From: Peredibacter starrii
Lineage (GTDB): Bacteria > Bdellovibrionota > Bacteriovoracia > Bacteriovoracales > Bacteriovoracaceae
DNA: 64,000 nt
Reading direction: 5' to 3'
NCBI RefSeq assembly: GCF_034259205.1
Contig: NZ_CP139487.1
Span: forward strand, 1,860,001 to 1,924,000
Within the stretch, counting starts at the first letter, position 1. Every line of letters begins with the position of its first letter. The translations under genes and the position numbers were made by a program. Below the pieces are notes generated by a model that was not told the origin of the DNA, did not search any database, and was given only the letters and a program-made list of their open reading frames with translations. Below, piece by piece: positions 48,315-52,839 of the stretch.

Positions 48315-49031
48315 ATGGAACCAACATTCAGTCGTGATGTTTATTCAAGCCCAACCCGTCAGTTGGCCGTTAGTCAGTACATGTCTAAGGTCTACTTATG
48401 GATGACAATGGGTATTTTACTTACGGGCTTTGTTGCCTACGGTGTGAGTACTAGTGAAGAGATTCTAACGATGATTCTGACCAATAAGATTTTATTTTAC
48501 GGTCTGATCATTGCAGAGTTTGCTCTCGTGATTTTTTTATCGGCCGGTATCAATAAGATGAATTCTCTTACTGCTACTGCCATGTTTCTTCTATATGCTG
48601 CCATCAATGGTGCCACTCTATCGATTTTCTCCTTGATCTATACGAGTGAGAGCATTCAAAGCGCTTTTTTCACCACGACAGTGGCCTTTGCTGGTTTGAG
48701 TGCTTTTGGTTTTGTGACTAAACGTGATCTGGGTCCTGTTGGTTCATTCTGCACCATGGGTCTTTTTGGTCTTGTTGGATTTGGTCTCCTGAGCATTTTC
48801 TTTCCATCAATGATGGGTACGACCGCCAGTAAAATTTATGGTCTAGTAGGGATCATCGTTTTTGCTGGATTAACGGCCTATGATACTCAAGCAATCAAGA
48901 ACATGGCCCCATCCGCGAGAGATTCTGAACAATTTCAGAAAGGTGCTGTCCTTGGCGCCCTTAAATTGTATCTCGATTTCATCAACCTCTTCCTCTTCAT
49001 TCTTCGAATGAGCGGGGACCGTAGAAGATAA
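48315..49031 (+). CDS. Bax inhibitor-1 / YccA-family membrane protein
   Basis: 238 residues with seven membrane helices. N-terminal cytoplasmic tail (SRDVYSSPTRQLAVSQYMSK), then helices and the family end AYDTQAIK...GALKLYLDFINLFLFILR. BI-1/YccA proteins modulate calcium flux or FtsH in bacteria. SD is AGCGAGG. Next to the Cpx-like module, which is consistent with an envelope role. Confidence 0.92.
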   Translation: MEPTFSRDVYSSPTRQLAVSQYMSKVYLWMTMGILLTGFVAYGVSTSEEILTMILTNKILFYGLIIAEFALVIFLSAGINKMNSLTATAMFLLYAAINGATLSIFSLIYTSESIQSAFFTTTVAFAGLSAFGFVTKRDLGPVGSFCTMGLFGLVGFGLLSIFFPSMMGTTASKIYGLVGIIVFAGLTAYDTQAIKNMAPSARDSEQFQKGAVLGALKLYLDFINLFLFILRMSGDRRR

Positions 49032-50324: not shown

Positions 50325-51140
50325 TTAAGCTTTAAATGACTTTTTTAGTTCTTCAAAAATGAGTTTCCCTTCCATTGACTTAATAATCTCAGGAAAACAA
50401 ACCACCGCTAAGCGGTCCTTATAAGTGGGAGTATTGGGAACTTTTTTAAGATTGAGTCTCTGTGCTTTCACCACTTGTGAAGGGATGATCCCATAACCCG
50501 CACCTGAATCAACCAAATGAGAGATGAGTTCGAGGTTAGGAACTTCGACCCGAGTTCCTGGAGCGTCTTTCCAACGAGACAAAATACTGTTGGATTGAAT
50601 CATCTCCGGGTTCAAAATGAGGCTATCTTGATAACGATCTTTTGATTCCCAAACGTGAACCATGTCTTCACCAATGAAGCGAGTGACAAGTCCCGGGACA
50701 GGCAGAGGATTCATCACGATACCAAAATCAACTTCACCTTGAGCGACCTTTTTGTTGATCTCGTGAGAAGGGCCGTTCACGATTTCAAGATTGAGCTTTG
50801 GAGCAAGTCTATGCATAGAGCGAAGGAATTCTCCTAATACAAACATTCCTACCGAAGGGTGACAGCCAATCTTAAACGACAGATTTGTCGGCGCCCCTTT
50901 GATCTGAAACATGAGTCTCAAGGCCTCTTCCGCTTTTGGAAGAATCATTTTTCCTTGTGGAGTGAGTTTGATCCCTGAGCGACCACGTGTAAATAACGGA
51001 AGTCCGAGTTCTTTTTCCATCTTCTTAATTCCCAAGGACAAAGAAGGCTGGGCCATATCGAGCTTCTCTGAAGCTTCGGATAAAGTCCGTGATTTTGCTA
51101 CGGTGATGAAGTTTTCCAGGTCTTTAAAGGTCAAGCTCAT
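50325..51140 (-). CDS. LysR-family regulator next to isonitrile genes
   Basis: 271 residues. N-terminal HTH (FITVAKSRTLSEASEKLDMAQPSLSLGIKKMEKELG) and a substrate-binding domain (FKIGCHPSVGMFVLG, VDFGIVMNPLPVPG). Divergent from pvcA-like with a 96-bp gap, the usual LysR-target layout; in Pseudomonas the LysR protein PtxR controls pvc genes. The intergenic TAA-N9-TTA around 51147 is a weak candidate binding site. Confidence 0.85.
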   Translation of the reverse strand: MSLTFKDLENFITVAKSRTLSEASEKLDMAQPSLSLGIKKMEKELGLPLFTRGRSGIKLTPQGKMILPKAEEALRLMFQIKGAPTNLSFKIGCHPSVGMFVLGEFLRSMHRLAPKLNLEIVNGPSHEINKKVAQGEVDFGIVMNPLPVPGLVTRFIGEDMVHVWESKDRYQDSLILNPEMIQSNSILSRWKDAPGTRVEVPNLELISHLVDSGAGYGIIPSQVVKAQRLNLKKVPNTPTYKDRLAVVCFPEIIKSMEGKLIFEELKKSFKA

Positions 51141-51236
51141 ATAGATAATTACCTATGTTAGATATTTGTCTCATTTAATTTTTAAATCTATTCCATCGGG
51201 ATATCAAGTCTAAATAAGAAAGAACCGGAGGAAATT

Positions 51237-52166
51237 ATGATTGCCCAAGAAATCAAGAACACAAACTTAACTCAGTCTATTGTAGAGGCGATGGAAGCGG
51301 TTTCAAAGCTTTCTTCCAATGAGTTAACTTTCGATCAGTTCCTTGAGGTTCCTCTCATGCAAAACATGGCCTCTCAGATGGCCACGGGACGCTCACTGAA
51401 ATTTCTTTTACCGGCCTTTCCCGCTAAGAGTCCAAGCCCAGTTAAGACGTCCGGAGCACTTCCTGATTTCGGTGAAGTCATCGCCCTTCAAGCTCTAAAT
51501 GAAATGTGTGCAAAAATCACCGCTAACTACAAACCAGGTGCTCAGGTGGTGATCTGTTCTGATGGACGAGTATTTAGTGATGTGGTGAATGTTTCGGATA
51601 AAACAATCGACGCTTACTCGGAAGGAATTCAAAGCATTATCAATGAGTTTAATCTCACTCATCTTTCAACTTTTTCACTCGAAGATTTATACCCTAATCT
51701 TTCGGGACCTGAACTTCGTAATCGTCTGCTTTGGCAATTTGCTAAATCGATAGAAGAAGTTCGTCATCAGGTGATTGAAGACCGGCACTACCAGGGACTT
51801 TTCAATGGGATGCATAAGTTCATGGTGGAAGATCGCATGGGGATTCCAACTGTAAAAAGTAAAAACCAGATTAACAAAGAAACAAAGAGCGCCACATACG
51901 AATTAATGAGACGCTCAGACGCCTGGTCAGCACTTCTTAATCATTACTTCAAAGGTGCACTCAGACTTTCAATTCACCCATACCCTCATACTCATGAGAA
52001 GTTTGGTGTGAAGCTGGTTTCATCTTCAAGCAAGTGGGCGACTCCCTGGCATAACGTGACCGTAAAAGTGAAAGATAAATATGAGCTGATGCATTTAGCG
52101 GAAGCAGAGAGATTGGGTGCAGAGAAAAAAGTATTCGGAGGAAAGTATGTCTTCTTCGAAGCTTAA
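51237..52166 (+). CDS. pvcA: PvcA/DIT1-type isonitrile synthase
   Basis: 309 residues. VVICSDGRVFSDVVNVSD, RHYQGLFNGMHKFMVEDRMG, GALRLSIHPYPHTHEKFGVKLV and WATPWHNVTV are the Pyoverdine/dityrosine (DIT1_PvcA) signature. The enzyme turns the amino group of Tyr or Trp into an isonitrile using ribulose-5-phosphate. CGGAGG SD. The end overlaps the pvcB-like start by 20 bp. Which amino acid is used is unknown. Confidence 0.88.
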   Translation: MIAQEIKNTNLTQSIVEAMEAVSKLSSNELTFDQFLEVPLMQNMASQMATGRSLKFLLPAFPAKSPSPVKTSGALPDFGEVIALQALNEMCAKITANYKPGAQVVICSDGRVFSDVVNVSDKTIDAYSEGIQSIINEFNLTHLSTFSLEDLYPNLSGPELRNRLLWQFAKSIEEVRHQVIEDRHYQGLFNGMHKFMVEDRMGIPTVKSKNQINKETKSATYELMRRSDAWSALLNHYFKGALRLSIHPYPHTHEKFGVKLVSSSSKWATPWHNVTVKVKDKYELMHLAEAERLGAEKKVFGGKYVFFEA

Positions 52167-52839
52167 TGGAATCATGATTCTCAAAGACCAGAAGTTTTCT
52201 AAAGAAGAACTTTTGACTTATGCTCAGACTCTCTCTGATAAATCAGGCGAGATTCAGGATAAACTTCTTCATTGGGATTTTGGTCCAATGATGGAAATGA
52301 GGTTTGATCGAAATGCGCAGAACTATCTCTTCTCAGATGAAGTGGTGCCTTTCCATTGGGACGGGGCCTTTTATCGTGAACCTAGTAAACTTCTTTTTTT
52401 CTGTGAAGAGAGTGTAGGAAATGGTGGGGAAACTTTATTTGTGAACACCGAACTTCTATGGAGTTCACTCACCGAAGAAGAGAAGGTCAAATGTGAGAAA
52501 GTCACTCTCACGTACCGAACTGAAAAAAAGGCCCATTACGGTGGCGAAATTAAGGTCCCACTGGTTCAGAAGCATCCCAGAACTGGGTCGATTATTCTTC
52601 GTCTGGCCGAAGAAGTTGAAACGCATCTGAATCCCGTGACCTTGAACATCATTGGAATTGAAAACGCTGATGCCTTTTATCAAGAACTTCGAAATAAACT
52701 CTATGATCCGGCGTTCATGTATGAGCATGCATGGGAGAAGGGAGACCTCTTGGTTTGCGATAATTTTACCTTCCTCCATGGCCGTAGGGCCCTCGGTGGA
52801 AACTTAAAGCGCTCATTTAAGCGAATTCAGATTCTTTAG
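52147..52839 (+). CDS. pvcB: PvcB-type Fe(II)/2-oxoglutarate oxygenase
   Basis: 230 residues. TauD-like fold: HxD in FHWDGAFYREP, distal His in FLHGRRALGG and Arg in LKRSFKRIQIL. Next to PvcA this matches the desaturase/decarboxylase that turns the isonitrile acid into a vinyl isonitrile or an unsaturated acid. GGAGG SD inside the end of pvcA, so the two are coupled. Confidence 0.88.
   Translation: MSSSKLNGIMILKDQKFSKEELLTYAQTLSDKSGEIQDKLLHWDFGPMMEMRFDRNAQNYLFSDEVVPFHWDGAFYREPSKLLFFCEESVGNGGETLFVNTELLWSSLTEEEKVKCEKVTLTYRTEKKAHYGGEIKVPLVQKHPRTGSIILRLAEEVETHLNPVTLNIIGIENADAFYQELRNKLYDPAFMYEHAWEKGDLLVCDNFTFLHGRRALGGNLKRSFKRIQIL

Follow-up and report, generated by a model that had tools for sequence, protein, structure and literature searches.

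The window, by which we mean the whole 64-kb stretch of Peredibacter starrii DNA that was analyzed, carries a gene for a LysR-family regulator that is transcribed divergently from a gene for a PvcA-type synthase, and the 3′ end of the latter overlaps a gene for a TauD-type PvcB oxygenase (Table 1). All three open reading frames and their families, which had been proposed in a preliminary description of the same DNA, are borne out. Enzymes of these types make and oxidize isonitriles, which are metal-binding small molecules.

Table 1. Genes and candidate regulatory elements at the P. starrii locus (window positions).
Feature	Positions	Strand	Basis
DUF924 protein, 198 aa	49706-50302	minus	PF06041, 127 bits
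LysR-family regulator, 271 aa	50325-51140	minus	HTH_1 and LysR_substrate matches
Candidate LysR operator, ATAGATAATTACCTAT	51141-51156		directly 5′ of the LysR start codon
Shine-Dalgarno-like GGAGGA for pvcA	51227-51232	plus	read off the sequence
pvcA/isnA-type isonitrile synthase, 309 aa	51237-52166	plus	PF05141 DIT1_PvcA, 234 bits
Shine-Dalgarno-like GGAGGA for pvcB, within the 3′ end of pvcA	52137-52142	plus	read off the sequence
pvcB/isnB-type Fe(II)/2-oxoglutarate oxygenase, 230 aa	52147-52839	plus	TauD, PF02668

The pvcB gene had been listed with a GTG start codon at position 52117, but the ATG at position 52147 is the better candidate, and we moved the start there because of the GGAGGA sequence at positions 52137-52142. 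With this start codon, pvcA and pvcB overlap by 20 bases. The neighbors of the cassette in the window are the LysR gene, a DUF924 gene that was absent from the earlier gene list and that lies 22 bases 3′ of the LysR gene on the same strand, and an ABC-F gene that begins 94 bases 3′ of pvcB. The earlier statement that no glycosyltransferase or exporter gene adjoins the cassette holds for the window.

The synthase is the sole PF05141 match in the 4.15-Mb P. starrii genome, and its score far exceeds the family cut-off of 26.4 bits (E 2e-69). An AlphaFold model of the protein (mean pLDDT 89.8) matches the structures of PIsnA (9dhm) and PvcA (3e59) with TM scores of 0.86-0.89. In an alignment of 34 sequences, the synthase keeps every residue that the family holds invariant (34 of 34 positions). 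Its score against the NCBIfam PvcA equivalog NF045653, for which the substrate is tyrosine, is 197 bits versus a cut-off of 600, and therefore the window synthase does not qualify as a PvcA sensu stricto. In a tree of PvcA proteins it falls within a P450-linked clade with support of 100/95, whose ten members are eight P450 loci, the window and one locus cut by a contig end.

The oxygenase matches the TauD family with 102 bits (E 7e-29), and its closest relatives of known structure by sequence are PIsnB (7tcl, E 7e-37) and PvcB (3eat, E 7e-26). The same two structures are the first and second matches to its predicted model (pLDDT 94.1). An identity as a trimethyllysine or butyrobetaine dioxygenase was considered and rejected, with NCBIfam matches far under the cut-off. 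The iron triad H70/D72/H211 and the binding arginines R222 and R226 are kept, and these align to H101, D103, H250, R261 and R265 of PIsnB (reference residues from PMC9467999). Likewise, W43 corresponds to a PIsnB tryptophan that packs against the arginine that binds the substrate. The window oxygenase and its closest relatives are short at the N terminus, with 230 amino acids in the window protein versus 281 in the PIsnB chain. Judging from their sequences, the two genes encode a PvcA/IsnA-type isonitrile synthase and a PvcB/IsnB-type oxygenase, and the pair is real and apparently intact.

Two positions of the oxygenase bear on the class of product that might be made. By a published rule for PvcB relatives, Lys or Arg at position 107 together with Asn or His at position 188 (PIsnB numbering) indicates a vinyl isonitrile, and Leu together with Cys indicates an isocyanoacrylate (PMC9467999). 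The window oxygenase carries Tyr (Y76) at the position of PIsnB K107 and Ala (A154) at that of N188, and thus fits neither the PIsnB-type nor the PvcB-type subgroup. Ala is present at position 188 in 35 of 35 P450-linked PvcB rows, in which some loci are counted twice, and position 107 is mostly Tyr or His in these proteins. FAD-linked rows mostly carry Arg at 107 and Asn at 188. In the published work, no single substitution at either position switched the product (PMC9467999), and Ala188 is therefore a subgroup marker from which no product can be forecast. For the P450-linked Ala188 oxygenases, the published selectivity rule offers no forecast.

Genes matching PF05141 are present in 43 of 369 Bdellovibrionota genomes, including eight of the 26 genomes of the window's genus. 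Two types of cassette are evident in the phylum, in which pvcA-pvcB is followed either by a FAD_binding_3 monooxygenase gene (23 genomes) or by a cytochrome P450 gene. A P450 is the next gene after pvcB in 13 of 13 P450-type loci of the phylum that run past pvcB, and three contigs that start inside pvcB (G102, G027 and G049; L171-L173) also run into a P450. Overall, a P450 directly follows pvcB in all 16 other Bdellovibrionota genomes with the window's cassette type. The P450 subfamily itself occurs in 17 of the 369 genomes, 16 of which have a PF05141 gene of the window's type; in the 17th (G049), the contig begins in pvcB and the P450 is next. An 18th P450 match, which is 27% identical, was taken as a distant paralogue. 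By sequence comparison, the window proteins group with the P450-type cassette and not with the FAD type. The genome G084 (L063:4652-6525), which is from the window's genus, has a FAD-monooxygenase cassette and not the P450 type, and thus the two cassette types replace each other within the genus.

The missing P450 is present elsewhere in the P. starrii genome. Among its six P450 genes, one is of the cassette type and resides on the minus strand at G000:C1:2501317-2502570, which is 588 kb from pvcAB. This P450 shares 62-69% identity with its counterparts in the cassettes of the nearest relatives, about as much as those share with one another. Its stop codon overlaps a GNAT-like gene, and such a gene also follows the cassette P450 in G088 and G089, with a weaker form in G054, G058 and G238. 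P. starrii is the only genome of this cassette type in the phylum with the P450 away from pvcB. The apparent split is known from one assembly of one genome. As this assembly is a single 4.15-Mb contig, the distance cannot be put down to a contig break.

These findings alter how the locus should be read. The preliminary description had proposed a minimal isonitrile cassette, and the class of chemistry stands on the basis of family, predicted fold and residues, but its completeness does not, since the third gene, encoding the P450, lies elsewhere. Relatives carry this third gene and often the GNAT-like fourth, and P. starrii has both at a distance. The corollary that the product may be simple is likewise not borne out, given that the cassette P450 and the GNAT-like gene are present in the same genome.

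Other candidates were sought among the distant genes. A relocated FAD monooxygenase was rejected as the third gene, as the P. starrii copies are just 26-29% identical to the cassette type. A search of the P. starrii genome, made without a positive control, yielded no glycosyltransferase like that beside the G004 and G102 cassettes. The genes flanking the relocated P450 did not serve to date the move, as the adjoining 352-amino-acid gene has just two distant matches among 58 genomes of the family. Window positions 48315-49031 hold a gene that was named YccA/Bax-inhibitor-like from a comparison of loci, and its homologue sits directly after the cassette P450 in G024 and G102. The cassette therefore probably had its ancestral site close to the window locus.

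Additional evidence for a link between the two places comes from the DNA near the regulator gene. The window LysR is 62-79% identical to the LysR proteins beside the same cassette in eight relatives, one of which is the betaproteobacterium Parachitinimonas caeni, and in these eight a 16-mer like ATAGATAATTACCTAT, usually ending in TTACCTAT, is found 0-2 bases from the LysR start codon. A matrix built from the eight relatives only, with no P. starrii site included, gives the window copy a score of 19.0, and the runner-up in the 64-kb window scores 13.0. With the same matrix, a second site (G000:C1:2502621-2502636), whose distance 5′ of the relocated P450 is 50-74 bases according to which start codon is chosen, scores 15.2. 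This score is reached at three of 399,985 background positions, or approximately 0.0015 expected per 200 bases, where the background consisted of a 400-kb genome sample supplemented by whole-genome pattern counts. In leave-one-out tests of the matrix, eight of nine loci have the operator-like site as their top-ranked match, the exception being the weak G102 site (8.6, rank 2).

The pattern ATAGATNNTNACCTAT occurs twice in the 4.15-Mb genome, once at the LysR/pvcA site and once at the P450 site, although this pattern was picked after both sites were seen and the matrix test alone is independent of the P450 site. A looser pattern, ATAGN6ACCTAT, has seven matches genome-wide versus 18 for its reversed control, and thus is not enriched as such. 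From these comparisons, the relocated P450 appears to carry a copy of the regulatory DNA site of the cassette.

The DUF924 gene is also of interest. DUF924 in general was rejected as a marker of the cassette, as 120 of the 369 genomes have such a gene and most are located elsewhere; the association applies only to a divergent subfamily. The copies of P. starrii (G000) and G102 score 127-130 bits, whereas most full-length copies of the common kind in the phylum reach 175-230. The divergent subfamily adjoins the cassettes of the window, G102 (L037) and P. caeni (L094), near the LysR gene, and in a Kangiellaceae MAG (L163) it forms one protein with PvcA. Because of these three adjoining cassettes and the fusion, the DUF924 gene probably belongs to the cassette. 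The only PDB relative of DUF924 is the uncharacterized protein 2i6h.

The Kangiellaceae MAG encodes a natural PvcB-P450 fusion of 697 amino acids, beside which lies the 862-amino-acid protein that joins cyclic-nucleotide-binding, PvcA and DUF924 domains. The same region (L163:537-7260) holds a second PF05141 gene, of 326 amino acids. In P. caeni (L094:4129-8857), the gene order is DUF924-LysR-pvcA-pvcB-P450, the PvcA protein is 53% identical to that of the window, and the operator-like site is present. These similarities likely reflect horizontal transfer between phyla.

Similar gene arrangements are known from other bacteria. The isnAB genes of Legionella are reported to occur invariably with a P450 gene and a helix-turn-helix gene (PMC5126622). 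In the Legionella loci L102-L104, L109 and L127, a LysR-type gene is divergent from isnA, and isnA is followed by isnB and then by a member of the same P450 subfamily, as in the cassette of the relatives. The cassette type was therefore already known, although in P. starrii the P450 is 588 kb off and most of the Legionella LysR proteins match the window LysR weakly (approximately 20-34 bits). No report of the product of Legionella isnAB was found in the literature searched. In Pseudomonas aeruginosa, the pvc genes are activated by the neighboring LysR regulator PtxR (PMC3639982), and this system shares PvcA and PvcB homologues and an adjacent LysR gene with the window. However, the window locus lacks pvcC and pvcD, and its oxygenase carries Tyr/Ala where PvcB carries Leu/Cys at the selectivity positions. 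The rhabduscin isnA-isnB genes of Photorhabdus and Xenorhabdus represent the closest solved structures for both window proteins, but the window has no adjacent glycosyltransferase gene, and PIsnB carries Lys107/Asn188 in place of Tyr/Ala. Many FAD-monooxygenase cassettes of the phylum have the same LysR, pvcA, pvcB order as the window. They differ by their FAD_binding_3 third gene and by a PvcB of approximately 278 amino acids that has Arg at 107 and in most cases Asn at 188, residues for which the rule forecasts a vinyl isonitrile.

Isocyanide synthases are paired with P450s in fungi as well. XanB is an isocyanide synthase that also carries a dioxygenase, and the P450 XanG is proposed to dimerize a tyrosine-derived vinyl isonitrile to xanthocillin; in yeast, the P450 Dit2 acts after Dit1 (PMC5974471). 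In contrast, the window enzymes are encoded by separate bacterial genes. The relocated P450 resembles bacterial P450s, including CYP125 and YjiB, among proteins in the PDB, and therefore any reaction shared with the fungal P450s would be an analogy. By such analogy, coupling is a plausible reaction for this enzyme.

Because of the distant P450 and the presence of an operator-like site at both places, we favor as the probable interpretation that the window holds one half of a three-enzyme isonitrile pathway that is split into two LysR-linked units. Like PIsnA and PvcA, the synthase would use ribulose-5-phosphate as the carbon donor in converting the amino group of an aromatic substrate, with L-tyrosine as the probable amino acid, to an isonitrile. 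Desaturation of the side chain by the oxygenase would follow, and the relocated P450 may carry out a further oxidation, for which hydroxylation or oxidative coupling is the most plausible reaction. We infer that the divergent LysR protein would bind the T-N11-A-type palindrome before its own gene and pvcA, along with the second copy before the P450 gene, and would switch both units together. Only tentatively do we extend this proposal to a specific outcome, which seems a possible but rather doubtful one, in which the P450-linked PvcB subgroup and the P450 yield a coupled bis-isonitrile resembling xanthocillin or dityrosine, or another class beyond vinyl isonitriles and isocyanoacrylates, with DUF924 as a new accessory.

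Alternatively, the locus might be a minimal two-enzyme cassette that makes a bare vinyl isonitrile or isocyanoacrylate, with the distant P450 having been recruited elsewhere. Two-gene isnAB units do exist, pvcA-pvcB occurs in some relatives without either third gene, and in P. starrii the nearby ABC-F gene follows pvcB with no third biosynthetic gene in between. This explanation is unlikely, however, because the distant P450 is as near to the cassette P450s as those are to each other, retains its GNAT partner, carries the operator-like site, and belongs to a subfamily that is confined to genomes with this cassette. The patchy occurrence of PF05141 within the genus might also suggest a decaying locus, from which the third gene is gone and in which the remaining pair is heading for loss. 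We give this very little credence, since both reading frames are open, putative catalytic residues and ribosome-binding sites are intact, and the operator is kept at both places.

A different, Dit1-like outcome can be envisioned in which hydration of the isonitrile gives an N-formyl amino acid and the P450 then couples this product, in the manner of dityrosine synthesis in yeast. The synthase belongs to the same Pfam family as Dit1, which in yeast works with the P450 Dit2 (PMC5974471), and N-formyl tyrosine is also accepted by PvcB and PIsnB (PMC9467999). Against this stand the PvcB-type oxygenase that is always part of this cassette, the predicted synthase fold, which matches PIsnA and PvcA, and the report that a fungal Dit1 product is a stable isonitrile (PMC13005658). 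We consider this outcome quite improbable, and continue to favor the split three-enzyme pathway.

A literature search that combined Bdellovibrio with isocyanide found no paper linking isonitriles with Bdellovibrio relatives. As far as the literature searched shows, four things are new, namely the spread of the cassette in Bdellovibrionota, its division into two units that share an operator-like site, the Ala188 subgroup and the link to DUF924. A single locus does not give the full set of isonitrile genes in this lineage, as the P450 would be missed without searching the genome for the third gene of the relatives and for the shared operator. A three-enzyme pathway thus becomes testable at once, the operator-like site provides a handle for finding further regulon members, and DUF924 gains its first functional context.

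Several additional gene arrangements were observed. Approximately 5-9 kb from the relocated P450 of P. starrii (L090:14204-19034) is a series of genes, all in one direction, that includes another P450, an unassigned 277-amino-acid gene, a squalene-epoxidase-like flavoprotein, a GST-like gene and a Rieske oxygenase, and these look like a separate biosynthetic cluster. In Hymenobacter (L114:5209-8685), PvcA has a TetR-type N terminus and PvcB is fused to a UbiA prenyltransferase domain; similarly long forms occur in related Bacteroidota.
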